Below are positions 24,687-41,203 of a DNA stretch of 64,000 bases, one piece after another (within the stretch, counting starts at the first letter, position 1; every line of letters begins with the position of its first letter). The notes beneath the pieces were generated by a model. It worked only from the letters and a program-made list of their open reading frames with translations, was not told the DNA's origin and did no database searches. The stretch lies in NCBI RefSeq assembly GCF_029872155.1, contig NZ_JARXLA010000002.1, positions 744,001 to 808,000 on the forward strand, written 5' to 3'. This DNA is from Hyphomicrobium sp. D-2. GTDB lineage: Bacteria; Pseudomonadota; Alphaproteobacteria; Rhizobiales; Hyphomicrobiaceae. Made by a program: the position numbers and the translations under genes.

Positions 24687-27600
24687 TCACCTCACGATGA
24701 TCTTGTCGCTTTCGTTCTTCGAAGGTCCAGGGATCGGAATATAGCGGCACCGCCCGCCAAGGAATTTCGATGGTGGGATGCAGTAGCAATTGGGCGGCGT
24801 CCCGCGGCTACCACCGGAGCATCTGGCCTTCTTCGGCTCCTCTGTCTTGGAAGGCGTGGGTGTTGGCTCTGCGTTGGGCACGCATTGCCCGGAGCGGGAC
24901 AAGTGTGTTCCGGGTGGGCATTTGATCGTAGGCTTCACACACGTGCCATTCTGAAAGCGAGTTCCGGGTGGGCAACAGTTCGGCGGCGTGCCGGTCATGC
25001 CCATCGGACAGCCGGGTTTGGTGCCGCTTGAGCCACCGTCTTCCTTGCCGCCATCTGGTTTGTCGGGCCGGCATGCGCCGCGTCGGAAGTGTGTGCCGCG
25101 CGGACAGCAGTTCGGCCAGTTACCGATCGGACGTGCGCCTTCACAAACCGGCAGCTTGATGCCGCTTGCGCCGCCGTCTGGCTTGCCGTCATCGGGCTTG
25201 TCGGGCCGGCATGCGCCGCGTCGGAAGTGCGTGCCACGCGGACAGCAGTTCGGCCAGTTACCGATCGGGCGTGCGCCTTCACAAACCGGCAGCTTGATGC
25301 CGCTTGCGCCGCCGTCTGGCTTGCCGTCATCGGTCTTGTCGGGGCGGCATGCGCCACGGCGGAAGTGCGTGCCACGCGGACAGCAGTTCGGCCAGTTGCC
25401 GATCGGACGCGCGCCTTCGCAGACGGCCGGCGGTGGCTTGGTGCCGCTTGAACCGCCGCCGTCTTTTCCAGCGTCGTCTTTGTCTGGCCGGCATGCGCCG
25501 CGTCGGAAGTGTGTGCCGCGCGGACAGCAGTTAGGCCAATTGCCGATCGGGCGTGCGCCATCGCAAACCGTCGGCGGGAGTATGACGCCGCTTGCACCGC
25601 CGTCCGGCTTGCCGTCATCAGACTTGTCAGGGCGGCAGGCACCGCGCTCGAAGTGCGTGCCGCGTGGGCAGCAGTTCGGGAAGACGCCGATGGGGCGTGC
25701 ACCCTTGCATACGGGTTGAGGCGTTGGATCGCGGGTGATGCAATTGCGACCGTTCCACGTGGTGCCAGAAGGACAGGCGCAAAGGCCGTCGTCCGTCAGC
25801 ATCATTCCGCCCTTGCATTCTGGCTTGGTTGGTTCGGCTTTTTCAGGCGACCTCACCGTCACGCATGACGATGACGGTTGGGCACCATCACGTGCCGAGG
25901 CCTTCCCACCGGCGACGAATGCGCAATTGGTGAAGGTGTCGGCGCTGCGCGGAACACGCGCCGTGATGGTGAATTTGCGCGCGGCCCCGGCCGGCAACGT
26001 GAAGTCGTCACCGGTCCTGCAGTTGAACGGAATGGCCTGCGGCTGCTGTGTGCACGGCAGTGACGGAGCAGCCGACACGATGGGCATGGAATCTATGCCG
26101 GATAGGCCATCGGTGAGTGTCACTGCGCCTTTGTGCTCAGCCCGTCCCGTGTTGGTCAGCGTGAGATTGAAGACGCATTCGCTTCCGGGTGCGCAGGTGG
26201 CTGGGCCCGTCTTATCAATCTTGAGGCTGAACGGCTGATCGGGCGGGGCGAGCTGCACGCTGTGGCAAGCCGGCTCGGATGCAGCACCTAACGTATCAGT
26301 GCTACCCACCGTCGCGCAGTTGGAGAACGATGTTGCGCTCGCATCCGCGGGCAGCCGCACGATCATGACGTATTTGTTGTGCTCACCGGGTGTCAGATTC
26401 ATGTGGCCCGTGCATGTAAATGGGACATGCGTCGGTGCGGGCGTGCACGGGAACGGATCTGCGCCAGCTGCCGGAGTGATGGATACGATCTGCGCCGACG
26501 ACAGTCCTGACAGTTTATCCGTCACGGTCACGGGATCGTCGTGGACGATTTGCTCGTCGTTGAAAATGTCGAGTTCAAAGCGGCATTCGCTACCGGGCTG
26601 ACATGACTGGTCGCCGGTTTTTGTAACCTTTACCTTAAACGGATCGAGCTTCTGCGAGGCGCAGCTCTTGATCGGGCCCATGTTGGGCGGGGCGCCGACA
26701 AGCTCGGCGCAGTTCTTGAGAATATTGCTGTCTTTCCAGCTCTTTCCGGGCTTTACGGAAATTCCAAGCTCGATGAACTTGCCGGGGGCCAAGGGGACGA
26801 ACGTGCCCGGTTTAAGCGGGTTGGGTGCACCTGGGATGGTGCAGTCGATAGAGGCGGCGCCAATGCCGCCCGCCCCAGCCTTCGTGCAGTTCCATCCCAC
26901 GTTGCCGCCCGGCCCCTCCTGGAGGAGTTCCGGTGCGCCCAGTGAGATGGTGTCATTTATTTTGATAGGCCCGACGAAATCGCTCTTCCCGGTGTTCGTC
27001 ACCCGGATGATGAAGAGGCATTCCCCCTTCAGCTCGCAGTGGTCCACGCCTTGTTTCGACGTGCCGAAGTTCCGCTTCTCGATGGCGAGATTGGGTCCTG
27101 CGGCTCGCTGGCCCGACATCGCGGTGCAGACCGCCGGCACCGTGCCGGCGATCTGGTCGCGCGGCAGCACACAGTTCTCGCCGGTGAATTCCATGAGACC
27201 GACCGTCGTCGTTAGGTCGAATGTCGTGGAAACCCCGGGCGGCAAGTCAGAGTTGATATCGCACCAGATGTTTCCGGGCTTGTTGCACGAGACCTTGGCC
27301 ACCGAGGCGACCATAGTCGCGGAGACAACTTCGGCCTTGATATCCGTGAGGCCGAAGTCGTTCTTTATGTTTCTGGGGAAGTCGACGATCTTGATCGGCC
27401 CCTTGATCGTCTGGTTGCCAACGTTCGTAGCCGTGACGCGGAACGTGCAGGTGGGATCGCAAACGCTGTCGACGCGCTCCTTTTTCAGAACGAGCTTGGG
27501 ACCCTGAAGAAGATTGACGGAGACGCACGACTTCGCCGCTGCACCGACAACGCTGGCGCAGTTCTGCATCACCTTGGCACCGGTCTGCTTACTGAAGACG

Positions 27601-30600
27601 GTGCGCAGTCTCAGCGTCGCCGTCCCCTGCGGGCCGATGATCATTGCCGGAATGCTGGTGCAGGTGGATTTGCCTCCCGGCGTGCACGTCCAGGTCTGGT
27701 TGGGAACGAGGACGGCCTCGGGCGCGGCCTTGCCGTCGAGCGTCAGTTCCTCGTTGACGACGACCGGGCCGTTGAACGGGGCATCGCCTTCATTCTTGAT
27801 TGCGATGGTGAAGTTGCAGCCCCCGAGGTCGGAGCATTCGGCGGGGCCCGTCTTGGTGATGGTGAGCTTCGGCTGTCCTCCGGCTGGGTTCGGCTCCGGT
27901 TCAAGCGGGAGCGTGGCGCACGATGCAGCCGCAGCACCCTTCAACGTGGCGCAGTTCTTCACTTCTTTCACGGCGCCAATCCCGGCGCCGAGATCGAACG
28001 TGAGGCTCAACGGCGGAGCGGCGCCATTGGCCGCGATCTTCAGTTTCGCCGCGCATTTGAAGCCCTGTCCGTTCTTGGCGCACGACCATGGCGCAGCAGG
28101 CGCCGGTGTGATCGCAGTCGCGCCGAAGATGGCACCATCGCCAGTGATGGAATCGTCGAACTCAACGTCGCCGTCGAAGTCGTTGGCAGATGTGTTCTTG
28201 ATCGCGAACGTGAACGTGCAGGCTTTCTTGGCCTGGCAGGCCACGCCCGTTTTCAGCAGGGAGAGCTGTCCGGCCACGGATGGCTCGGGCTGCTCGTCCA
28301 CAACGGGCGGGGGAAGCGTCGGCTCGTTCGTTGGCGTACCCTGATCGTCGGGCGTGTTGGAATTCCACGCGATACACGAGGTGTTATCGTCGGGATTGGC
28401 GTCTTCGCTTGTCACGCCGGTCGATGGAACGACCTGAGGCGCGGCCGTGCCGGACGCTGCCGATGCGGCATTGTTAGCGGCATTGACGTCCGCGGCGTCC
28501 CCGTTGCTGACAGTTGCAGTAGCTGTGATCGGCCCCGCAGGCTCGGCAGGGAACGTCCCCCGCACTTCAAAACTCCTCTGCCCTTTCGGTGGCAGTTGGG
28601 GCGCAGTTGTAAAGTGCGTCGTGTTTCCTTCCTGGTTCGTAGCGACGCCGGGACCGGCACCCAGACCCGGATTGGTTCCGGCTATCGTGACGGAGAAGTT
28701 GGCGCCGACCGGCACTGTTCCAGAATTGGAAAGCGTCACGATCCACGAGCAATCGCGCACCGAACCGCGCTGGATGCACTGGGGCACGCCAGAGATGGCG
28801 ACGGCACGATCAAATCCGTTACTCGTGCTGGCGGGAAGATCGGGGAGCGGCGGCGGCTCCTGGGCTTTCGCAAGGTCCGGCCTTGCCGGTTCGCCGCCCT
28901 TGCCGGGCTTCACGGTAATGCAGTTTTCGACCGTGAGGCCGCCGGGCGGAACCGCAAAGGTGGCTTTGATCTGGTTGCTGAAGTCCTGCGGGCCAGGCGG
29001 GATCGTCGTCGCCCCGAAAGTATTCGGCTCTGTCGTGAATCCCGTTGCCGTCTTGTTGGCTGAAAAGCCGATATCGAATGACTGCGGTGCAACCGAGAAG
29101 CGGTCCTCGAAGATCACGTCGTTGGCAACGAACGGCACTAGCGAGGTGTTGGCGAGGTTGATGAGGTATTCGCACTCGGCCTTGTCGGCCGCGACCAGCT
29201 TGCAGGTCTGGGTTTTGGTCGGCGCGAGATTGGGCGCGTTAGGATCGGTCGTGCCGCCGCCGCCCTCGACAGGAGGAAAGGTTTCGCCACCGCCCCCATC
29301 GGCAGTCGTACCACCCCCGCCGCTATCCTCGACCGGTGGGAACGTTCCGCCGCCACCTCCTTCGGTGCCGCCCTCCGCAACCGGAGGAAATGCGCCGCCA
29401 CCCTCGACCGGTGGGCCGCCTTCGGCGATGGGCGGAAACCCTGCGTCGACGCCACATAGCAACAGTGCCGCCACGGCGCCGACGTGACCGCGAATGGCGG
29501 AGTCATCTTGTGCCGTAGTGTAATCGAGAAATGCGCTCTGCGTCGGTGGGACGTTCGCCGGGCGCACCAACTCCAAGGCGTTGAACTGCACGCCGCTGGC
29601 GATGCCTGCAAGCGTGTCGCCGGTGGCCGCCACGGTGGCGGAGCAGGTGTTGAGGTCAAGGAAGCCGTCGGGCTTGTAGCCGTATTGCAGGCTGACGCCG
29701 CCGCTGGCTGCATTGCTGTCATCGGCGGTGCCTATGGCGTAGATAGCGGGAACCTTGCTCCATAACCCGGGCGTGCCGGGGTCGTCTGGTGTCTCCTGCA
29801 CGTATCGCAGCACCTGCGCGCCGGGTTCGGTGAAGCTGCCGTAATCGTAGGGGTTTTGCACCGGGCTGCGCTGCGCGAGCAACATCCGCCCGGTGGCGTC
29901 AAAGGCGATGCTGGTGACGGGAAACGGCTTGGCCGCATCAACCGTAACCTCCAACCTCGGGTCGCCGAGGAAAGCGCCGCCACTTAGGCCGACGGACCAT
30001 ATCTCAGGGCCTTCAGCGACGGCGTAATAGAGGCGACCGTCGTGCACGGCCAGCGCATTGATGCGACGCGCGGTCTGGGTGAAGCCCCAAGTTGCGGGAT
30101 CGTCCGCCTTGAACGCGTTGCTCATGATTTCAAGGCGCTTGCCATCGTCTGACACTGCTTCCTTGCCAGCCGCGCGCAGTCCGGTAACTCCGTGGTCGTA
30201 TTGTCCGAGATCGGCGGCGTTGTATTCAAGGCTGAAGCGATGGATCAGGCCGGTGTCGAGGTCGGACGCATAGAGCGTGCGCGTTTTGCGGTCGTACGCC
30301 AATCCGCCGATGCCTGGTCCCGTGTTGGGGATGCCGGAAAAAGCGGTGTCGGCTAACAACGAGACAGCGCCAGTTGCGCCGTCGATCTTGTAGATCGCTC
30401 CAGGGCTATTGCTGGACAGGCTGCCGAACTGCCCCTCCATGAAGGTCGCGTCAGGTGTGCCAGCCTTCAAACGGTTCGGGTGCCCGTCGGCGGCGCGCCC
30501 CCCACCAACGATGCGCAGGCCGAAGGCGGACGTTGCTGCCGCAAAGATGCGTGGTGGGCCGCCGTTGTCGCTCGGATCGATTGCCAGCGCGAAGACCTGA

Positions 30601-30932
30601 CCAATGTCCTTGGCAGGCACAGCCAGTCGCAACGGCGCATTGACCAACTGGCCGGCGAGCGTGCCGTTGAGGCTCGATGCATCGAAAATGCGCAAGGATG
30701 GCGCGCTCACGTCGATGAAGGTTCGATCCAGAGGATCAACGCCTGGGGGAAGCTTGTCGCTGGCCAGCACCGTGCCGGAAAAGCCGGTGACGGCAACATC
30801 GCCTGCCTTAATCGCGGCAGTAGCCGGCGCTTCGCCAACGGTTTCGGCGGGGGAGCTGCCACTCATCACGAAAGTTGAAAATGCGACTACGACCGCGGCT
30901 CCAACCGGAGCCATCCATCGGGACACCTGCAT
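24687..30932 (-). CDS. Giant secreted protein with DUF11-like modules and cysteine-rich repeat tail
   Basis: A 2081-residue exported protein. A signal peptide (about 1-31) follows a GGAGGG ribosome-binding site. Residues 35-490 look like a beta-propeller-type domain (repeats such as GIGGLAYDRKTRTLYASDLD and ARRINALAVHDGRLYYAVAE). A Gly-rich linker (about 494-567) carries repeated FPPVEGGG-like units. Then come eight Ig-like DUF11-type modules (about 568-1697), each opening like LTITKTGPAEC and closing with CA or CV. The tail (about 1700-2081) is cysteine-rich with five copies of CxGARPIGNWPNCCPRGTHF. No transmembrane anchor, LPXTG or outer-membrane barrel is visible, so export beyond the periplasm would need another system. 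I know no function; an extracellular structural or adhesive role is inferred. Confidence 0.85.
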   Translation of the reverse strand: MQVSRWMAPVGAAVVVAFSTFVMSGSSPAETVGEAPATAAIKAGDVAVTGFSGTVLASDKLPPGVDPLDRTFIDVSAPSLRIFDASSLNGTLAGQLVNAPLRLAVPAKDIGQVFALAIDPSDNGGPPRIFAAATSAFGLRIVGGGRAADGHPNRLKAGTPDATFMEGQFGSLSSNSPGAIYKIDGATGAVSLLADTAFSGIPNTGPGIGGLAYDRKTRTLYASDLDTGLIHRFSLEYNAADLGQYDHGVTGLRAAGKEAVSDDGKRLEIMSNAFKADDPATWGFTQTARRINALAVHDGRLYYAVAEGPEIWSVGLSGGAFLGDPRLEVTVDAAKPFPVTSIAFDATGRMLLAQRSPVQNPYDYGSFTEPGAQVLRYVQETPDDPGTPGLWSKVPAIYAIGTADDSNAASGGVSLQYGYKPDGFLDLNTCSATVAATGDTLAGIASGVQFNALELVRPANVPPTQSAFLDYTTAQDDSAIRGHVGAVAALLLCGVDAGFPPIAEGGPPVEGGGAFPPVAEGGTEGGGGGTFPPVEDSGGGGTTADGGGGETFPPVEGGGGTTDPNAPNLAPTKTQTCKLVAADKAECEYLINLANTSLVPFVANDVIFEDRFSVAPQSFDIGFSANKTATGFTTEPNTFGATTIPPGPQDFSNQIKATFAVPPGGLTVENCITVKPGKGGEPARPDLAKAQEPPPLPDLPASTSNGFDRAVAISGVPQCIQRGSVRDCSWIVTLSNSGTVPVGANFSVTIAGTNPGLGAGPGVATNQEGNTTHFTTAPQLPPKGQRSFEVRGTFPAEPAGPITATATVSNGDAADVNAANNAASAASGTAAPQVVPSTGVTSEDANPDDNTSCIAWNSNTPDDQGTPTNEPTLPPPVVDEQPEPSVAGQLSLLKTGVACQAKKACTFTFAIKNTSANDFDGDVEFDDSITGDGAIFGATAITPAPAAPWSCAKNGQGFKCAAKLKIAANGAAPPLSLTFDLGAGIGAVKEVKNCATLKGAAAASCATLPLEPEPNPAGGQPKLTITKTGPAECSDLGGCNFTIAIKNEGDAPFNGPVVVNEELTLDGKAAPEAVLVPNQTWTCTPGGKSTCTSIPAMIIGPQGTATLRLRTVFSKQTGAKVMQNCASVVGAAAKSCVSVNLLQGPKLVLKKERVDSVCDPTCTFRVTATNVGNQTIKGPIKIVDFPRNIKNDFGLTDIKAEVVSATMVASVAKVSCNKPGNIWCDINSDLPPGVSTTFDLTTTVGLMEFTGENCVLPRDQIAGTVPAVCTAMSGQRAAGPNLAIEKRNFGTSKQGVDHCELKGECLFIIRVTNTGKSDFVGPIKINDTISLGAPELLQEGPGGNVGWNCTKAGAGGIGAASIDCTIPGAPNPLKPGTFVPLAPGKFIELGISVKPGKSWKDSNILKNCAELVGAPPNMGPIKSCASQKLDPFKVKVTKTGDQSCQPGSECRFELDIFNDEQIVHDDPVTVTDKLSGLSSAQIVSITPAAGADPFPCTPAPTHVPFTCTGHMNLTPGEHNKYVMIVRLPADASATSFSNCATVGSTDTLGAASEPACHSVQLAPPDQPFSLKIDKTGPATCAPGSECVFNLTLTNTGRAEHKGAVTLTDGLSGIDSMPIVSAAPSLPCTQQPQAIPFNCRTGDDFTLPAGAARKFTITARVPRSADTFTNCAFVAGGKASARDGAQPSSSCVTVRSPEKAEPTKPECKGGMMLTDDGLCACPSGTTWNGRNCITRDPTPQPVCKGARPIGVFPNCCPRGTHFERGACRPDKSDDGKPDGGASGVILPPTVCDGARPIGNWPNCCPRGTHFRRGACRPDKDDAGKDGGGSSGTKPPPAVCEGARPIGNWPNCCPRGTHFRRGACRPDKTDDGKPDGGASGIKLPVCEGARPIGNWPNCCPRGTHFRRGACRPDKPDDGKPDGGASGIKLPVCEGARPIGNWPNCCPRGTHFRRGACRPDKPDGGKEDGGSSGTKPGCPMGMTGTPPNCCPPGTRFQNGTCVKPTIKCPPGTHLSRSGQCVPNAEPTPTPSKTEEPKKARCSGGSRGTPPNCYCIPPSKFLGGRCRYIPIPGPSKNESDKIIVR
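25011..25709 (-). repeat. Five tandem repeats of 135-145 bp in the giant gene
   Basis: Five in-frame copies encode CxGARPIGxxPNCCPRGTHF followed by RRGACRPDK and an acidic Gly-rich spacer. The middle units are 138 bp (46 residues) and nearly identical at DNA level. The first copy, at the upstream side, is most diverged (VF for NW). Each unit has four cysteines (C, CC, C). Confidence 0.9.
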
Positions 30933-31017: not shown

Positions 31018-31211
31018 GCGGAGGATGATCCCGAAAATGGACTGGCAGCTTCGGCGGCATTTGAGATTTCTGCCGTCTCAGGTAGCCTTGTCTTTTGCTG
31101 AAGACGTTGGTCGCGAACTACGGGATCATCGCGGCGGCAGCGCTCGTCGGCAACTTCGAGCCGCGGCGTCCGCTTATCCTCTCGAAGCGTCAGGGCGATT
31201 GTCTCTCCGGC

Positions 31212-34200
31212 TCACCAAGCGACTTTGACGCCGAGTTTGCCGTCGTAGGCGTTGCCGTCTGCATGTTCGCCGATGCCGACGAGATAGGATGCGTTGGCAT
31301 AGATGGCCGCGCCGTCGCCGATGTCGGTGGAAAAGCCGGTGTTGATCTCGAACGTGGTGCCGCCCATGTCAGCCGCGAACGGAATGAAGCCGGTGGCAGA
31401 CGAGAACTTCGTCTTTGGATCGCCGAGGAACTCATACCAGAAGTTGGGTCGCACCCATGCGGTGAAGGTAGATGGTGCTCCGGTCAGCCAGGTCGGGGTG
31501 CCGAAGTCCTGCGCAAAGCGCACACCCACACGCCCCACCAGTGAATTGACGTTACCGAAGTGCACCTGTGCGGCGACATCGGATCCGTTGCTGAGGTTGA
31601 CGGTCTGATAGGCGAGCTGCGCCTGTGGCTCGATGCTGAAGCCGCCGGGTCCGGTGTAAACCGGATAGCCACCTTCGAGTGATGCACCGAAGGCGCCGCC
31701 ATCTGTTTTCATCTTCGGGATGCGGTTGGACTTAGCGTCAATATCGTACCACGATCCTAACAGCAGCGCGTCGACGTAGGCGTTCTCAGGTGTGTAGTGG
31801 GTCCAGTAAACGCCCCATGAGTACGCCATGAAGCTGTTCTCGCCCGCCTTGCCATCGCCGATGTGCCGCACATCGCCGGAGCCGTGACCAATGGCGAAGA
31901 ACGCACCGGCATGATTGCGTGATGTCCCGACATCGCCGTCGCGATAAAGATCCATACCGCCCTGGAAGGCCCAGAAGTCATAGTCGTACTTCGGGCCGGC
32001 GCCGTAGATGCCACCCTTACCGCCGTCGCGATCCCCATGCTGGCCGATCACACGCGCCCACGCTGCATTTGGTGCGCCTTCAGCGTATGAACTGACCGCC
32101 GTACCGCGCCGTTCGTGCAGTGTGTCCAGCATCAGACGGCCATAGAGCAGCGTCATCGCCGGCACGGCTGCATAGAGCGAGGTTTCCTGCCGCCAATCAG
32201 GGATGTCGTCGCCACACACCGGTGCTGATGGATCCAGCGCGCAATCGAGCTCTGAACGCAGGTACCAATTATCGGGATTGGCACCGTTCTCACCGCCGCG
32301 GTAGAGCGAATATTCATACGGACCGGCGACGACGGGGCCGGCCAGCGCGAACAAGCCTGGCACCGTCGCTCCGTTAAGTGCGTCAACAATGAGAATGCCG
32401 TCCAACCGCGTGAGATCACCACCACCGCCGACGTTATTGACCGACAGCAACGAGGTGCCAATCGCGTTGCCGCCATCGATCACCAGCCTATCGGATGACG
32501 ATCCATCGCTGCCAAGATGTGTATTGACACCAAGCGTGCCGCCCGCGCCGAGGTAATCGTTGACCGTCAAGGTTTTGAACGGTCCCGCGCTCGAACCCGG
32601 CGGCGTGAACTGCACAAGGCTGCCCGCAGCGTTATCCAGAAATGAGATGTTGGAATCGCCCGTTACGTTCCAGCGCGAGTTGGTAAGAGCGACAATGGAG
32701 ACGCCGCCAGCTGCCGTGGTTGCTGAACCGTTCAGTGTCGATCCCGTCGCGTCGATGCCCAAAGTCGCTGCGGCGCCGACATTCAGCAACTCGTTGCCAC
32801 CGGTCACCGTCGAGCTTGTGAGGGACGCTTGCAACGTCCCGCCAGTAACATTGAAACCGGCACCGTCAGCCGCTGTCACAGTGCTGTCGGTTATGGTGAT
32901 GCTACTTGGATCGGGACCAACAGCATAAACGGCTGCAGAGTTCGCTCCAGATGTGGCTATCGTGGCGTCCGCGATCGTTACACTTGCATCGTAAAGAGCT
33001 ATCGCCGCTGCTTCACCGCCGCTTGTCACGATGGAAGAGCCACCTAAAACTTGGGCTGTGGAACTCATTACAAAAAGACCAGACGCGCCATATCCAGTCG
33101 TCGAGATCTGAGTGCCGTTCCGCAACGTAATGTTGCTGCCAAATCCTGCGCTGGCTGCGGTCGAAAAATCGCCTGATGTGCGAGCGACAACGGCGTCGGC
33201 TACTATGCTGCCACCGTTCAACGCATAAAGTGCTGAGGAGCTGTCACCTGAGGTCGTAACCTGCGTACCGTTTGTCAGCGTGATCAGGCTGTCGCTTCCA
33301 AACGCATAAGCGCCATAGCCATTGCCTGAACTCGAGGTGTTGACCGTAACTGCATCGGCCACGATCTCGCCGGCGTCAAAAGCATGAAGGCCATTGCCGC
33401 TCCCCGTAGTGATGATGTCTGTTCCGTTCAGAAGTGTCACTTTGCTGCCCGAACCTTCAGCCCGTGCGCCGTCCGATCCAGAGCCCGAGGTGCTGACCGT
33501 GACACCATCGGCCAAGATCTCACCGGAGTTCAAAGCATGGAGGCCATATGCACTGCCACCCGAAGTGGTGATCTGTGTACCATCGAGGATAGAAATCGCC
33601 GAACTGGAACCGACCGCGTGGGCTCCGTAGGCGTTAGTGCCTACAGTGCTGATGGCGCTGTTTGCGTTGACGTTCACCCTTCCGCCTGTTTCCGCATGCG
33701 CACCGTGGGCACCGTCGCCTTGGGTGGAGACTTGAGCGCGCTCCAGAGAAACAAGCGAACCGGCATCCGACGCCCACGCACCATGGGCGCTATTTCCCAC
33801 AGTACTGATGGTGCTGTCGTCAGTGAGTACTAAGCCGCCTGTTTCGGCATGCAGGCCATGCGCGCCGACACCCTGGGTGGACACCTCAACGCCCTGCAGC
33901 GACGTAATCGTATTTGCCCCCGATGCCCACGCGCCATGGGCGTTGGCACCCGCAGTACTAACGGTGGTACCGCCCTGCGCGGCGACGTGGCCATCTGTTT
34001 CAGCATGCAGGCCATGTGCGCCGACACCCTGGGTGGACACCTCGACGCCCGATACCGAAGCAACCGCGCCCACGCCTGAGGACCATGCGCCGTGGGCATC
34101 GATGCCGGCTGTATTTATGGTGCCGCCTGCCGCACTGACTGTTCCACCTGTTTCCGCATGCAGCGCATGGCTGCCGTCGCTCTGGGTAGAGATTTCGGCG

Positions 34201-35108
34201 TCATACGTCGAAACAACCGTATTGTCTCCCGCTGAACGAATAGCGAAAGCCAACCCACCCGCCGTGCTCACCTGACCCCCATAAACGGTGACGAGCCCGC
34301 CAGACGTTGCGTTCAATCCATACGCGTTATCGTTTCCAGTCTCGATCTCAACGCTCTGCAAGACCATGACAGCAGCATCGGATGCAACGGCCGCGTGTGC
34401 CCCAAGACCGGTTGTGCGAACTGCGCCGCCATCGGCGGCAATCGTGCTGCCCAAAGAAGCAAACAGGCCATAGGTGCTGTCACCTGTGGTGGTGATCTGG
34501 GTCCCGTTGCTCAATGCTATAAGCGAGCCGGCATCTGCTGCGCGCGCGCCGTATGCACCTGCGCCTGAAGTGTTCACCGTAATCGAATTGCCTGTGATCT
34601 GCCCGCCATTAAAAGCATAGAGACCGTCTGCGCCGATTCCGGTTGTGGTGATCACCACCCCGTTGCCAAGCATGACGGTCGAACCAGAATTCAGCGCTAT
34701 GGCTGCGAAAGCTCGTTGCCCCGAAGTGCTAACCGTCACCGCGTCTGCTGTGATACTTGCGCCGGTAAATGCAAAAAGCGCGTCTGCATCATCGCCCGAA
34801 GTGGTAACCGTTGAGCCCGGCTGATTGAGCATGATGCTTCCGCCCAATTCTGAATAGACGGCATGCGCATGACCTCCGCTTGTTATCGCGGTCAACAATC
34901 CGTCGGTGACAATCGTGCCACCATTGAGTGCCCATAGGGCGTATCCTGCGCTTGCCGTCGCCGGACTTGTATCAATGAGGCCATTGGCCGTTAGATTCTG
35001 ACCCGTGTCGGCCTTGACCTGCTGCGCTTGCGTGCCGGACGCCTGCATTGCTGCGAGCATCGCGATGATCGAAACTGCACAGCCGTGCGTATGCCATGAA
35101 CGCATCAT
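31212..35108 (-). CDS. Autotransporter (type Va secretion) with repetitive beta-helix passenger
   Basis: A 1298-residue self-exporting surface protein. The signal peptide spans about residues 1-28 (MMRSWHTHGCAVSIIAMLAA). The passenger (about 30-980) is made of short ITTTG/VSTSG-type rungs such as ADAVTVSTSGQRAFAAIALN, as in a right-handed beta-helix. A region with 52-residue repeats is listed separately. The C-terminal beta-barrel (about 1020-1298) has the usual GxxxGRxGVRFA strand and ends LGVKVAW. I chose the ATG at 35108 (or the adjacent 35105) because GAGAGGAAC lies just upstream and the signal peptide begins there; the frame is open to 35174. The function, probably adhesion, is inferred. 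Confidence 0.88.
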   Translation of the reverse strand: MMRSWHTHGCAVSIIAMLAAMQASGTQAQQVKADTGQNLTANGLIDTSPATASAGYALWALNGGTIVTDGLLTAITSGGHAHAVYSELGGSIMLNQPGSTVTTSGDDADALFAFTGASITADAVTVSTSGQRAFAAIALNSGSTVMLGNGVVITTTGIGADGLYAFNGGQITGNSITVNTSGAGAYGARAADAGSLIALSNGTQITTTGDSTYGLFASLGSTIAADGGAVRTTGLGAHAAVASDAAVMVLQSVEIETGNDNAYGLNATSGGLVTVYGGQVSTAGGLAFAIRSAGDNTVVSTYDAEISTQSDGSHALHAETGGTVSAAGGTINTAGIDAHGAWSSGVGAVASVSGVEVSTQGVGAHGLHAETDGHVAAQGGTTVSTAGANAHGAWASGANTITSLQGVEVSTQGVGAHGLHAETGGLVLTDDSTISTVGNSAHGAWASDAGSLVSLERAQVSTQGDGAHGAHAETGGRVNVNANSAISTVGTNAYGAHAVGSSSAISILDGTQITTSGGSAYGLHALNSGEILADGVTVSTSGSGSDGARAEGSGSKVTLLNGTDIITTGSGNGLHAFDAGEIVADAVTVNTSSSGNGYGAYAFGSDSLITLTNGTQVTTSGDSSSALYALNGGSIVADAVVARTSGDFSTAASAGFGSNITLRNGTQISTTGYGASGLFVMSSTAQVLGGSSIVTSGGEAAAIALYDASVTIADATIATSGANSAAVYAVGPDPSSITITDSTVTAADGAGFNVTGGTLQASLTSSTVTGGNELLNVGAAATLGIDATGSTLNGSATTAAGGVSIVALTNSRWNVTGDSNISFLDNAAGSLVQFTPPGSSAGPFKTLTVNDYLGAGGTLGVNTHLGSDGSSSDRLVIDGGNAIGTSLLSVNNVGGGGDLTRLDGILIVDALNGATVPGLFALAGPVVAGPYEYSLYRGGENGANPDNWYLRSELDCALDPSAPVCGDDIPDWRQETSLYAAVPAMTLLYGRLMLDTLHERRGTAVSSYAEGAPNAAWARVIGQHGDRDGGKGGIYGAGPKYDYDFWAFQGGMDLYRDGDVGTSRNHAGAFFAIGHGSGDVRHIGDGKAGENSFMAYSWGVYWTHYTPENAYVDALLLGSWYDIDAKSNRIPKMKTDGGAFGASLEGGYPVYTGPGGFSIEPQAQLAYQTVNLSNGSDVAAQVHFGNVNSLVGRVGVRFAQDFGTPTWLTGAPSTFTAWVRPNFWYEFLGDPKTKFSSATGFIPFAADMGGTTFEINTGFSTDIGDGAAIYANASYLVGIGEHADGNAYDGKLGVKVAW
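33620..34200 (-). repeat. 52-residue (156-bp) passenger repeats in the autotransporter
   Basis: About three to four units of the form VEVSTQGVGAHGLHAETDGH followed by a TVSTAG...AHGAWAS half. Two exact-spaced copies start at 33841 and 33997 on the plus strand, 156 bases apart, and differ at few positions. Each unit contains two beta-helix rungs. Confidence 0.75.
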
Positions 35109-35913
35109 GACCGTTCCTCTCGGAAAACAGTGTCCGGCCATGCCGATGAAAGCTGGGAATGCGGCGCTGTGCATCGCATCAGTGTGCCTGACGCGCTAGC
35201 TGGGCGTGCTATGAACGTGGCTAGAGCACTGGACGTCATCGTGCGCCATGGAGCGAACTCCAACTGATCTGAACACAGAACAGCATCAGTGATTCGCCAA
35301 ACGCGCAGATCTGCGATTAGCGGCACCAAAGCGTTATAATCAGTATCGTCGCAAAATTCACACAGTCCACTGACTGTTATACATTATCCTGAGCTCGGTC
35401 AGAATGCCTGCTGAAGTCAAGGTCCGATATCGACGCGCCGTCGATATCTCAAAACGCCGAGTGCCCGCCCTGCCCTTCACTGCTTCGTCGTCAACATGAA
35501 AAGCTTGTGCGTACATGCGATGGCCAATCGCAATGGTGCTTTTGCGATTGCTGCGTCTGCGGGCTATTGCAGCCGCCGCCAATCATATCCGTTATTCGAG
35601 GCAGACCGGTCGAAGCGGCCGATGGTTTGATGAGCGCTCGTCACCCTGGTTGTGTAAATAAAAACTGCGCTCTATATGGGTACTCTGACCATTCTCGGGC
35701 GTGGTCACGAAGCGGATCGTCGATGGAGCAGATCGTGGCAATCGACGCTCCCGCCGCGGTGATTTCCGCCCTTCTCCAATGTCCTGTAGCTCTGTTATCT
35801 CCACGCCTTCTTCAGGCGCGTATGACCGCACCCCAACAGCGTGTAGGTTTATCAAAGAGGCGGACGATCCGTGGGCTTGCCGCACGGATTTGCCTTAGCC
35901 ACTCGCAAAAGCA
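35109..35913. other. Intergenic region between autotransporter and flavoprotein genes
   Basis: About 800 bases between two divergent genes. I see no gene with family-like sequence, no tRNA and no clear terminator. The AT-rich part around 35330-35400 may contain the autotransporter promoter. Confidence 0.6.
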
Positions 35914-37220: not shown

Positions 37221-37742
37221 TTAGAAGCCGACCTTCAGCCGCGCATTGAAGCTGTTGTCAGTCGTGCGATCGCCGAACTGCCCACTGTATGATACGCCTG
37301 CAGAAGCAGCCGCCGTAAGCTTGAGGTCAAGCCCGGCCTCCACCACGGCTGCATCCTGCGCAATCGGCGTGCCCGCCACGGTGAAGTCATCGCCACCGGC
37401 CGCGAACGTGTGCACCGAATGCAGTGCAACGTCACCGAAAGCGTGTTGCCAGCCGATGCCGCCGCGTACCACCGCCGTCGCACCGCCAAGGGTCAAGGCC
37501 GAAGCAAAGCGCATGCCGATGGTCGAGAATGACGTGTTCAGCGTATCGCGGGCCACCGATAACGCGGCCAGTCCGCCGGCCTCGGTGAATGCGTTGGTGA
37601 TGACCTGCACATGGGCGAAGTTGGCGTAAGGATCGATGGTCATACCGCGGGCGACGTCGAAGCTATAGGAAAGCTCGCCGAAAGCCTGCAGCGAGTGGCC
37701 ATTGTATTCGCCCTTCAGCGTCTCGGCGAAGTCACCTAACAC
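37221..37742 (-). pseudogene. C-terminal beta-barrel part of the frameshifted autotransporter
   Basis: These 173 codons encode the last strands of an autotransporter beta-domain: LQAFGELSYSFDVARGMTID, STIGMRFASALTLGG, ADLKLTA-like strand region and a final strand ending NARLKVGF. It continues the upstream reading frame (37736-41203) after a frame change near 37785. Reading the sequence in this frame beyond its first ATG or alternative start gives the expected WHDVSSQRGVGFGTVLGDFA. On its own it has no signal peptide and would not be made as a useful protein. Confidence 0.8.
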
Positions 37743-40700
37743 CGTGCCGAAACCGACCCCGCGCTGGCTGGAAACGTCATGCCACGCGTATGTACGCCGG
37801 AGCGAAACGCCAGCTTCTCCCAGTGCGCGCCAGCATAGCCACCGAAGTGGAACGTATCGGCCTTGGTGCCGGAAAGCGCGGTGTTGAAGGATGAATTGCT
37901 GTAACCGCCCAGCACGCCCATGCGCCAGATGTCGACGGTGGGCGCATCGGCACCAACCAGGAAGCCCCCTACCGTGCGGTCAACGGTGTCGATGCCATTG
38001 CTGCCTTCCGTTTCACCCCATGAACCAAACCCGCTAGCCCAAAACGATGCCCGCTCGCCACCGTCGCGTTTGGTGTGAAGATCGTCGGACCGCAGCCGGT
38101 TATTGATGGCCTCACGAACAAGGCGGCTGTCTTGCACAAAGGCGGCACGGGTTGAGACGTGCTGTGCACCCGAAAGCTGATCGAATGCCTTGCGCACGGT
38201 TTCTTCATCGGGCGTGCTGGCAGCAGCAAGCCAAAGCGCATTCGACTGGCCAAGTGAATCGAGCGCGCCCGCGGTTGCAATCTGATTGGCGGTTTTGCCG
38301 AAGGGCTTCAATGTTGCATCTGGATCGGGACCGGACGGCTCCGAACCGTCGTCAACCAGCGCAATGGCCAACTCCAGCGCCTTGTCATCCTCCTTATGCG
38401 TCAGCGTATAGGCGAGCAGCACCGAATCCTGAATGTCGTCGAAGCTACCGGTCAGCGCGCCGCCATAGCTGAGCACCTGATATTTCCAGCCGTCAGCGAA
38501 GGTGATGCCGCTGCCGTAGGCAACCGTCATCTTCGCGCCTTGCGCAATTGTGACGTCGCCACCAACGCTGACGCTATCGTTGACGCCTTCTTCCGCGATG
38601 CGCATCCGATATGTCGACCCTGCCTCGAACGCCAGATCACCGGCAACATTCAATGTGCCCATCGTCGCAGAAAGACCTGGCGCTAGCGTGCCGCCGTTGC
38701 CGATGGTAACAAGCGAAGCTGCAACCGGATTGGCTTCGGTGCCCGCCGCTGCGGAACCAATCGTGCCTGTTCCGCCGAGAATGCCGGTTCCCGAAACAGC
38801 AAACGTGCTGGCAAGATTGTTGGTTACCAGTAGTGTGCCGCCGCTCACCGTCGTTGTGCCAACGAATGCAGAACCATCGCCGCTATAGGTTGTGTTGCCG
38901 GCAAGATGCTGGATGCTTGCGCTGCCCGGCACGCCATCCTTTCGGATGTTGGCCGCGAAATCATAATTCTGGTTTGTGTGATTGAACACAAGCGCACCTG
39001 TGCCCTGCCCGAAAGTCAGACCGGAATAGTTGGCGGGGTTGGCATCGGGCGCAATCACGATCTTGCCCGCAGCCTTTGCTGCTTCACCCGCGGCGGCGCC
39101 GATGTTCAATGTGCCAAATGTGTTGGTGCTGTTGGAGCTCGCAAATCCACTCGCGATGTCAACTTTGGTTGCCGTTACAGTCGCGCCGTTTGATACGGTC
39201 ACGTGCGCATGCATTTCACCACCAACAGGCGGACTGGCGCGCGCGATGGAAAGCGTTCCCGCATCCACCGTGGTTGTCTGGCCATCTACCTCCATCCAAT
39301 GCTCGCCGATGGCGGAGCGGCCGACGGTGATCGTTCCGCCCTTGGTGTCGATCCGGCCGCCGTTTGCAATGCGCGCCTGCTTGATGCCCACAGTTCCCGG
39401 CGATGTGCCGGTTCCCGAAAGCGCCAGCTCGGATCCCGCGCCCGTAATCGTGAGCATCGTCGATGAAGCGCCGTGATTGTCGAAGTAGACGCTCTCGGCG
39501 TCGATGACTTTACCACCGGCCGAGATGGTCATCGAACTGCCTGTACGATAGCCGACGTACACAACCGGCACCGACTTGTCGTTGGCCGGATTGATAAAGG
39601 ACAACGTCGAACCGGCGCCCTGCACGAAGATCTGCGCCGGCCCATCCACGTGATTGCCGAGGTAGGCGTAATAGTAGTCGCCGAAGATGTGCTGGCCGCC
39701 AGCCTGCAGCTTGCCGCCGTTCTTGATGGTCAGCGTACCGCCGCCATCCGCGGTGCCGAATGCAATGTTCTGCGTGACCGCGTCGGTGCGTCCATCAACG
39801 ACGATGTCGCGGTCACGGTCTATGACTGCCGTGTGCGTCGCGTCTGGAACGATGCCGTCAGTCCATGTTTCCGGCGTAAACCAGTCACCCACAACGCCGC
39901 CACCGTTCTCACCGGCCAGCGAAATTTTAAGGCCGACCTTACCTGCTTCGCTGTAATCGAGCGCATAGCTGAGCAGGATCGAATCCTGGATCGCCGCGAA
40001 CTGGCCGGTCAGCGTGCCGCCGTACTCAAGAATGTTGTATTTCCAGCCGCTCTGATAGGTGATGCCGCTGTCATATGCGACCTGAACGTTCGCGCCGCTG
40101 TCGATCGACAGGTTACCGCCGACGACGGTCTTGTCGCTCACACCGTCTTCGGCGATGCGCACGCGATAATTCGATCCGTCTTCAAAATTGAGATCGCCCG
40201 CGACGTTCATGGTTCCGATGGTGGTGGTTCCGCCCGGAGCCAGCGTGCCGCCGTTGCCGATCGTCGTAGTGCGGAGCAGTTCAACCGTGCCGCCGGATGT
40301 TGCCTGTGTCGATCTGCCGACCGTACCGGTGCCAGCCAGCGTACCGGTGCCGCTGACGTCCATCGTGCCGCCCAGAGCACCGTCGACGTAAAGTGTGCCG
40401 CCAGAAACCTCCGTGCCACCTCTGAAGCGCGCGCTGTCAGCACTAAACGTCGTCGTGCCAGCAATATGCCGGATCACGGATTGTGAATCGTCAGCGAGAA
40501 GGCCCTGTGAGGCGAAGGCCGTGCCGAACTGGTAGTCAGTGCCAGTGTGATTGAAAACAACAGTGCCCTTGCCGTTGAACAGCACGCTACCGTAACTGGC
40601 AAGCGTCAGCGTGCCGGTACCTGCCGCCGCTGCCCCCTCGACACCACCGATAGCGAAGACAGAGCTGCCGGCAGTTTCGGCACCGATGGAAAGCGTGTTT

Positions 40701-41203
40701 GCTTTCAGTGACGCGCCATCGGCCAATTGCAGCAGCGCGTTACCACCATCGCGGCCGCCGATATGCATGGTGGAGTTCATCGTCACGGATGTTCCGGTTC
40801 CAGTAACGATCAGCGTTGCCTCGCCGCCACCATACTCAGCCAGACGAATGTTGTTGCTGGTCAGCGTAAACACGCTGCCGCCCATGATGGTCAGCTTACC
40901 CTTGGTGAGATTGAGCTGTGACGTTGACCCATTCTGTCCGTTGATCATGACGCTGGCGCCATTATCGATGATCGCAGCTTCAGCGGACGGGCTGATCGGA
41001 TTGCCGCTGTAGCTGCGCCAGTTGTTCGGATTGAACCAGTCATCATTGCCGGCGCCACCGGTCCAGGTCGCCGCCTGCGCTGACGATAACGTCAATGCCG
41101 TGGCTGCGCTCAACAGCAAGGCGCGCCGGAAGCTGCTCAGGCGAAAGCCCGCAGCGACGTTGTTGGTGGATACAGCTACGTTGTTGAATGAAACGCGAGA
41201 CAT
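37736..41203 (-). CDS. Autotransporter, N-terminal and passenger part (disrupted by a frameshift)
   Basis: This frame encodes 1155 residues: a long signal peptide (about 1-44, ending SSAQAATW), a beta-helix passenger and the first part of the beta-barrel. Two similar blocks of about 110 residues carry PATR-type passenger repeats (IGTMNVAGDLNFEDGSNYRV and MGTLNVAGDLAFEAGSTYRM), each preceded by a GGTL(Y/L)V rung. The barrel begins near residue 985 (ASFWASGFGSWGETEGSN). After SGVHT the frame reads RGMTFPASAGSVSARC and stops, while one of the other frames continues with WHDVSS as in intact homologues. The extra CG in ACGCG at about 37785-37788 explains it. The gene is 106 bases behind the TonB receptor gene. 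It is a pseudogene, a phase-variable gene or a sequencing error. Confidence 0.8.
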   Translation of the reverse strand: MSRVSFNNVAVSTNNVAAGFRLSSFRRALLLSAATALTLSSAQAATWTGGAGNDDWFNPNNWRSYSGNPISPSAEAAIIDNGASVMINGQNGSTSQLNLTKGKLTIMGGSVFTLTSNNIRLAEYGGGEATLIVTGTGTSVTMNSTMHIGGRDGGNALLQLADGASLKANTLSIGAETAGSSVFAIGGVEGAAAAGTGTLTLASYGSVLFNGKGTVVFNHTGTDYQFGTAFASQGLLADDSQSVIRHIAGTTTFSADSARFRGGTEVSGGTLYVDGALGGTMDVSGTGTLAGTGTVGRSTQATSGGTVELLRTTTIGNGGTLAPGGTTTIGTMNVAGDLNFEDGSNYRVRIAEDGVSDKTVVGGNLSIDSGANVQVAYDSGITYQSGWKYNILEYGGTLTGQFAAIQDSILLSYALDYSEAGKVGLKISLAGENGGGVVGDWFTPETWTDGIVPDATHTAVIDRDRDIVVDGRTDAVTQNIAFGTADGGGTLTIKNGGKLQAGGQHIFGDYYYAYLGNHVDGPAQIFVQGAGSTLSFINPANDKSVPVVYVGYRTGSSMTISAGGKVIDAESVYFDNHGASSTMLTITGAGSELALSGTGTSPGTVGIKQARIANGGRIDTKGGTITVGRSAIGEHWMEVDGQTTTVDAGTLSIARASPPVGGEMHAHVTVSNGATVTATKVDIASGFASSNSTNTFGTLNIGAAAGEAAKAAGKIVIAPDANPANYSGLTFGQGTGALVFNHTNQNYDFAANIRKDGVPGSASIQHLAGNTTYSGDGSAFVGTTTVSGGTLLVTNNLASTFAVSGTGILGGTGTIGSAAAGTEANPVAASLVTIGNGGTLAPGLSATMGTLNVAGDLAFEAGSTYRMRIAEEGVNDSVSVGGDVTIAQGAKMTVAYGSGITFADGWKYQVLSYGGALTGSFDDIQDSVLLAYTLTHKEDDKALELAIALVDDGSEPSGPDPDATLKPFGKTANQIATAGALDSLGQSNALWLAAASTPDEETVRKAFDQLSGAQHVSTRAAFVQDSRLVREAINNRLRSDDLHTKRDGGERASFWASGFGSWGETEGSNGIDTVDRTVGGFLVGADAPTVDIWRMGVLGGYSNSSFNTALSGTKADTFHFGGYAGAHWEKLAFRSGVHTRGMTFPASAGSVSARC

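Follow-up and report, generated by a model that had tools for sequence, protein, structure and literature searches.

We analysed a 2081-residue protein encoded on the minus strand at positions 24687..30932 of a 64,000-nucleotide stretch of the Hyphomicrobium sp. D-2 genome (contig NZ_JARXLA010000002.1; hereafter the window). The protein combines a predicted beta-propeller head, a Gly/Pro-rich linker, a stalk of eight modules of the DUF11 type and a Cys-rich tail, and we give an even chance to the reading that this long chain is an envelope protein with head, stalk and tail, acting like a fibrillar adhesin. It belongs to a widespread, hitherto undescribed family whose members are probably rugged, adhesin-like fibres; both isopeptide bonds and disulfides probably lock the stalk. 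The features of the gene are listed below in window coordinates, together with the basis of each assignment; residue numbers refer to the protein, and loci and genomes are cited by our own handles (L and G numbers).

24687..30932 (-): whole gene, 2081 amino acids (aa), head-linker-stalk-tail protein (open reading frame, orthologues, dN/dS)
30843..30932 (-): putative N-terminal export signal, approximately residues 1-30 (sequence read by eye)
29439..30860 (-): predicted beta-propeller head, residues 25-498 (AlphaFold2, Foldseek, family alignment A1)
29244..29438 (-): Gly/Pro-rich linker, residues 499-563 (sequence)
28833..29243 (-): module 1, divergent, 3 Cys, triad K573-D610-N670
28359..28826 (-): module 2, divergent, 3 Cys, without the isopeptide triad
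27891..28274 (-): module 3, 6 Cys, triad K894-D927-N993
27501..27878 (-): module 4, 6 Cys, triad K1027-E1061-N1124 (Glu replaces Asp)
27108..27500 (-): module 5, 6 Cys, triad K1151-D1184-N1253
26643..27098 (-): module 6, 6 Cys, triad K1293 (or K1286)-D1327-N1407
26238..26642 (-): module 7, 6 Cys, triad K1438-D1472-N1538, with a sandwich in the AlphaFold2 model
25836..26237 (-): module 8, 6 Cys, triad K1574-D1608-N1669, above the Pfam DUF11 cut-off
24690..25832 (-): Cys-rich tail, residues 1701-2081, ending DKIIVR (Cys-pattern count)
25018..25700 (+): 138-bp tandem repeat array beneath the tail, 4.9 copies

Stalk, head and tail of the window protein

The open reading frame (ORF) starts with ATG, and the gene is real rather than a chance ORF. 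Its orthologue in the congener G001 is 92% identical over residues 1-1818 and 95% over 1838-2081, and that of the congener G003 is 80% identical over residues 3-1942. For the whole gene, the ratio of non-synonymous to synonymous substitution rates (dN/dS) is 0.124 in the comparison with G001 and 0.145 in that with G003, and it lies between 0.05 and 0.20 in every part (head, linker, modules and tail), with the tail comparison to G003 near saturation (dS 1.49). Purifying selection acts along the entire gene.

For the stalk, we built an iterated profile that was seeded with the eight window modules and run over the window protein and ORFs of at least 400 aa from family loci. It recovered 438 modules in 117 ORFs and placed the eight modules of the window protein at residues 566-693, 713-827, 889-1012, 1020-1141, 1145-1255, 1292-1431, 1431-1565 and 1566-1695. 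Module 8 alone (window 25908-26225) passes the Pfam cut-off for DUF11 (PF01345; 28.4 vs 24.6 bits), and DUF11 is not listed in the Pfam scan of the whole protein. Among 32 scanned family sequences, 20 match DUF11 at E<=0.01 and 13, the window protein not being one of them, match the NCBIfam model TIGR01451 (DUF11 type repeat). Two designed Ig proteins in the PDB that matched the module profile (E 0.0028 and 0.0062) were regarded as a generic Ig signal. AlphaFold2 (AF2) models modules 7 and 8 as eight-strand sandwiches, with a predicted local distance difference test score (pLDDT) per block of mostly 83-97, and by strand count and Ig-like fold matches both are provisionally assigned to the Ig-like CnaA-type beta-sandwiches; transglutaminases, integrins and RbmA are among the Foldseek matches listed. 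The first of the 78 cysteines of the protein is residue 430. Six modules carry six cysteines, three pairs each, and the divergent modules 1 and 2 carry three.

DUF11 was renamed CLIPPER in 2025 as an isopeptide-locked domain (PMC12617251). In the crystal structure of one DUF11 domain (9IFR), Lys715 is bonded to Asn806 and Asp748 is the putative catalyst; the wild-type domain melts at ~80 °C and its Lys mutant at ~45 °C, and the wild type withstands proteinase K better than the mutant (PMC12617251). Since the bond is absent from some DUF11 domains (PMC12617251), we tested the modules of the window protein and of its family for the triad. Among 116 non-redundant modules (<60% identity; modules with <90 aligned positions left out), Lys, Asp or Glu, and Asn (or Asp) occur together in 103; by column, Lys is kept in 104/111, Asp or Glu in 111/114 and Asn in 110/116. 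Set A5 excludes ORFs that are incomplete or contain N (gene 1 of L034, L036, L039, L044, L045 and L046). In the window protein the triad is complete in seven of the eight modules, module 2 lacking it, and its residues fall within predicted strands 2-8, 32-43 and 103-112 of module 7 and 138-143, 172-179 and 234-243 of module 8 (AF2 fragment numbering). Because the triad is intact in these proportions in both the family and the window protein, we consider the stalk to be probably isopeptide-locked as well as disulfide-locked.

The AF2 model of residues 25-512, based on an alignment of 43 sequences, reached a pLDDT of 86 and a predicted template modelling score of 0.88. When this model was searched against PDB folds, 794 entries matched with E<=0.001. 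Judged by their titles and known folds, the best 50 of them are beta-propeller proteins; those listed include the YWTD propellers LRP6, LDLR and nidogen (1npe_A) as well as lactonase-like ones. Nidogen is the best-covered target, with a template modelling score on the target (TMt) of 0.68 and a root-mean-square deviation of 6.8, and superposition over the whole head query is poor (score on the query, TMq, 0.17-0.41). As modelled, the head thus adopts a propeller fold, which it has in common with YWTD/SGL-type propellers (nidogen 1npe, LRP6, putative lactonases), whereas it is only 9-18% identical to the listed matches, carries large insertions and has no sequence family match. None of 24 head sequences was matched by any Pfam family, and their alignment has 35 invariant columns, H, R, D, W and Q among them. 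Repeated FPPVEGGG-like units make up part of the linker that follows.

Of the nine Cys units in the tail, eight have four cysteines, six of these showing an adjacent CC and two showing CxC, and the ninth has two cysteines, which makes 34 altogether. Twenty-one relatives were aligned for the first tail unit; as 13 of them had been picked by its pattern, the other eight were counted, and in seven of these the unit follows the last module (the exception being L088), in fused and split forms alike. Six of 60 genomes, counting the own one, have a tail that is recognisable by sequence, strongly so in G000, G001 and G003 only, and looser Cys-rich units are present in many family members. Because a second protein of G003, with CAP and fn3 domains (L040:1478-3931), bears a similar tail, a mobile C-terminal module is suggested. 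That protein ends in IVR, as do the window protein, the G001 protein, a G026 ORF and a Methyloligella ORF. The TIL domain (PF01826) matched 2/32 family sequences weakly (best 1.1e-4). Both share a C-x-C-P-x-G ... G-x-C half with the TIL consensus, whereas the window protein has no TIL match and its own tail units carry four cysteines.

The preliminary description of this DNA, made from its letters alone, had read the gene as an exported chain with a propeller-like head, a Gly-rich linker, eight DUF11-like modules and a CC-containing tail. ORF analysis, AF2 and profile searches bear out this build, and two of the checks it proposed, a profile search with the modules and structure prediction, gave the eight modules, the propeller and the sandwiches described above. 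The published isopeptide chemistry of the modules was not part of that description. It had also known of no described protein with this tail, and we found no characterised full-length homologue in the PDB by sequence, in Pfam, in NCBIfam or in a search of one open-access library of papers. No Pfam or NCBIfam model spans the full length, and the whole chain gave no significant match in a PDB sequence search. A chemokine match in that search was weak (E 0.23), a CBM_1 match in the protein (E 0.12) was regarded as noise, and a paper on extracytoplasmic function (ECF) regulation in Brucella (PMC8315932) proved to be a spurious text match that concerns DUF1109/DUF1127.

Distribution of the family and its fused and split forms

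Of 149 relatives, the own genome among them, 60 have the head. In a class-wide draw it was found in 5/288 genomes besides the own one, one of these weakly (4.4e-4), and in a phylum-wide draw in 8/298 besides the own one, every one in the order of the window. By these counts the head family appears chiefly confined to that order, which the named loci (the best 80 of 341 relatives, from 590 candidates) identify as Hyphomicrobiales; they are mostly Mesorhizobium, and also Nitratireductor, Aminobacter, Methyloligella, Hyphomicrobium and Rhodomicrobium. A plasmid collection gave a single distant match, in Ciceribacter (29.6%).

Modules accompany the head in 111 of 113 head ORFs: 31 of these contain the modules themselves, and for 80 the modules are confined to the ORF that follows, on the strand of the head; in the remaining two, none were found (L041) or the contig ends (L046). 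The 113 include contigs counted twice (L014/L047 and L034/L080), and most of the split cases come from closely related members of Mesorhizobium. The protein is no orphan: the head-plus-stalk pair recurs widely across the order.

In Mesorhizobium, the head gene encodes ~740 aa, and the stalk gene that comes after it encodes ~1250 aa with DUF7929, DUF11 modules and a Cys-rich tail. DUF7929 (PF25551; published example A0A090G7K7) opens these two-gene stalk proteins, in 3/3 scanned, and was not found in the window protein by the Pfam scan. This domain, too, is predicted to be isopeptide-locked, through Lys86, Asp129 and Asn213 (PMC12617251), and the stalk protein of L054 (Mesorhizobium plurifarium) keeps the K/D/N spacings of the published prediction, 43 and 127. 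The C-terminal 100 residues of the head gene are related to a domain of the stalk gene (BLAST E 1e-7 in one pair; 94% probability in a profile comparison), and in L058 (Mesorhizobium) the related ~100-residue domain lies at 601-745 of gene 1 and 257-366 of gene 2. These related domains of the separate head and stalk proteins are a possible docking pair. Apparent "tandem copies" upstream in Mesorhizobium were discarded, the one checked (L078) being shadow-ORF-like, with no head or module match.

In a distant subgroup, a conserved, exported-looking protein of 350-400 aa follows the head-stalk gene; three of its members were scanned, and no Pfam match was obtained. Its positions are:

L037:11611-12666: exported-looking protein of 350-400 aa
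L038:4490-5554: exported-looking protein of 350-400 aa
L041:5520-6665: exported-looking protein of 350-400 aa
L042:5573-6784: exported-looking protein of 350-400 aa

Cell location, export and alternative roles

In the mechanism we propose, Sec would export the chain and the periplasm would oxidise it. The beta-propeller head may bind a ligand (a sugar polymer, a protein or a surface), and the stalk would be a rigid series of Ig-like modules of the DUF11/CLIPPER kind, of which seven have the Lys-Asp/Glu-Asn triad and six have three Cys pairs. In the seven, the triad would form an intramolecular isopeptide bond, and with the isopeptide and Cys-pair locks the stalk is proposed to withstand proteases, heat and mechanical pulling. 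The Cys-rich tail would be the likely anchoring or sorting end, and a chain carried across the outer membrane and exposed at the surface could then mediate adhesion.

The plan resembles that of known fibrillar adhesins in that an export signal, read by eye as a hydrophobic core after a charged start, precedes a long repetitive stalk recognised by profile. Like the DUF11/CLIPPER fibrillar adhesin B9T28_05395 of Acinetobacter silvestris (2129 aa; PMC12617251), the window protein is long and exported with an N-terminal head, and stalks of both kinds have tandem DUF11 modules with a K-D-N triad and cysteines in the modules. The head, however, is a predicted propeller instead of CshA-type domains, and where the Acinetobacter protein ends in an OmpA-like anchor (PMC12617251), the window protein ends in a tail of Cys-rich repeats. 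Furthermore, unlike in those adhesins, modules of the window family have up to three Cys pairs each, and head and stalk are sometimes encoded by two genes. The protein is not categorically new, because its kind of stalk domain has been characterised and fibrillar adhesins share its layout of head and stalk; new here are the propeller head, the heavily cross-linked stalk, the Cys-rich end and the fused or split arrangement. In the main text of the CLIPPER survey (PMC12617251), the words propeller, Mesorhizobium, Hyphomicro- and Rhizobi- do not occur.

Several observations weigh against a fibrillar adhesin. The head contains no recognised adhesive domain, judging by the lack of Pfam matches in the 24 heads, and propellers have many different functions. 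The structure 9IFR was missed by the profile search with the window modules and is absent from the best 50 Foldseek matches of modules 7-8. AF2 modelled the first three tail units with low confidence (pLDDT about 36-86), most folded blocks past fragment residue 300, in the tail, reaching 36-63. With T2SSG absent from the own genome and one secretin there, no outer-membrane exporter was recognised, and neither OmpA, an autotransporter nor a known sorting domain is among the families listed for the 32 family sequences. Finally, PG_binding_1 in relatives suits a periplasmic site as well as the surface.

We therefore weighed where the protein may reside and what else it may do. It may stay in the periplasm or bound to peptidoglycan, where it would serve structurally as a spacer or as a scaffold of the envelope, its Cys-rich tail, which is basic in several relatives, binding peptidoglycan or lipopolysaccharide from inside and no part of it passing the outer membrane. 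This somewhat unlikely alternative is favoured by those basic tails, by the 78 cysteines, which imply periplasmic oxidative folding, by the missing type II secretion system (T2SS) pseudopilin and by PG_binding_1, which occurs in 6/32 family sequences and suits envelope attachment; other envelope-binding families gave only single weak matches. However, a Pfam scan did not find PG_binding_1 in the window protein, and in each of the five carriers identified (L037, L038, L042, L017 and L018) the domain sits in the stalk region and the head is of the distant type. Tandem DUF11 stalks elsewhere are, moreover, typical for surface proteins (PMC12617251). A released matrix protein, cross-bridging biofilm exopolysaccharide with the propeller as binding unit and the stalk as spacer, strikes us as distinctly unlikely. 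No anchor was recognised among the families matched by the 32 sequences, head and stalk may be separate proteins in Mesorhizobium, and the biofilm scaffold RbmA of Vibrio cholerae appears among the fold matches of modules 7-8, all of which would suit release; yet the exporter findings given above speak against it, and the likeness to RbmA, a generic two-domain sandwich match, is by fold alone, with a score similar to those of transglutaminases and integrins.

It is very improbable that the propeller is an enzyme, for instance lactonase- or dehydrogenase-like, borne on a stable stalk. The 35 invariant columns with their H, R, D, W and Q would fit this, and putative lactonases and a PQQ sugar dehydrogenase are among the listed Foldseek matches of the head; against this stand the 24 heads without a Pfam match and the best-covered target, the YWTD propeller of nidogen, which is presumably non-enzymatic.

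As for the route of a fibrillar adhesin, type II secretion is unlikely. T2SSG, the T2SS pseudopilin and the sole T2SS marker tested, is absent from the own genome, which has a single secretin, and across the 149 genomes the head occurs in 17/37 with T2SSG and 43/112 without (Fisher p 0.44; overlaps for this and the other Fisher test below were counted by hand). The type II exporter whose conservation the preliminary description proposed to check is accordingly unsupported. The chain is likewise neither lipoprotein- nor autotransporter-like, as no lipobox Cys is seen by eye and no barrel model was found in the whole-chain scan. We consider it unlikely that the family represents a new class of Gram-negative envelope fibre, with a propeller head on a stalk cross-linked by isopeptides as well as disulfides, a single chain in Hyphomicrobium, reassembly from two neighbouring exported proteins in Mesorhizobium, a new C-terminal sorting or anchoring module in the tail that the unrelated CAP-domain protein of a congener also uses, and a non-type-II route across the outer membrane.

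Genomic surroundings and meaning of the family

The upstream side of the gene in the window holds two autotransporters:

31212-35174: autotransporter with AC_1, upstream of the gene
37221-41203 (-): second autotransporter, split over two ORFs

A TonB-dependent receptor with an STN domain and a FecR protein are also found there. In the split autotransporter, ORF 37736-41203 (1155 aa, with a weak PATR repeat) overlaps ORF 37221-37742 by 7 bases; the latter covers just the last 60% of the beta-domain, a possible frameshift. The gene does lie in a surface-protein cluster in the window, as the preliminary description had stated, but its two nearest congeners were not found to have these neighbours beside it. 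Synteny with the window holds downstream of the gene in G001, and the 5.8 kb upstream of the gene contain nothing matching the window past position 31025; for G003, where 6.8 kb upstream were covered, the gene alone matches the window. Within these lengths a conserved surface-gene cluster is unsupported, and because the autotransporter and TonB neighbours were found beside the gene in neither congener, the proposal of an undescribed surface system is weakened.

Divergent from the head gene in other lineages lie genes for an ECF sigma factor (Pfam), an anti-sigma-like protein and a subtilase S8 (Pfam). The anti-sigma-like gene has no Pfam match and is presumptively named from its position, its overlap and an apparent membrane segment. 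The sigma and anti-sigma-like pair occurs in six named loci (of the best 80 of 341), four of which also have the subtilase; cassette loci are L050, L064, L066, L077, L020, L025 and L033, clustering having missed the ECF gene in L033. Within 1.3 kb of a head match, the anti-sigma-like gene was found in 10/149 genomes, always divergent; three of those ten had contributed rows to its model. Strong matches (E<1e-30) occur in 38/149 genomes, and the head is present in 25 of these 38 vs 35 of the 111 others (Fisher p 0.0003, uncorrected for kinship). No match to the anti-sigma-like gene was found in eight genomes of the window's genus (G000-G007), for which the cassette is unsupported as a general partner.

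Before the CLIPPER survey, intramolecular isopeptide bonds were known mainly from Gram-positive adhesins and pilins (PMC12617251). Here, modules of the isopeptide type form the core of a family that is carried by many genera within one Gram-negative order and whose head and tail both lack a curated model in the libraries searched. The natural fused and split versions could reveal how head and stalk meet, and if these proteins are exposed at the surface, they would imply a non-type-II export or anchoring route for very large, disulfide-rich proteins.

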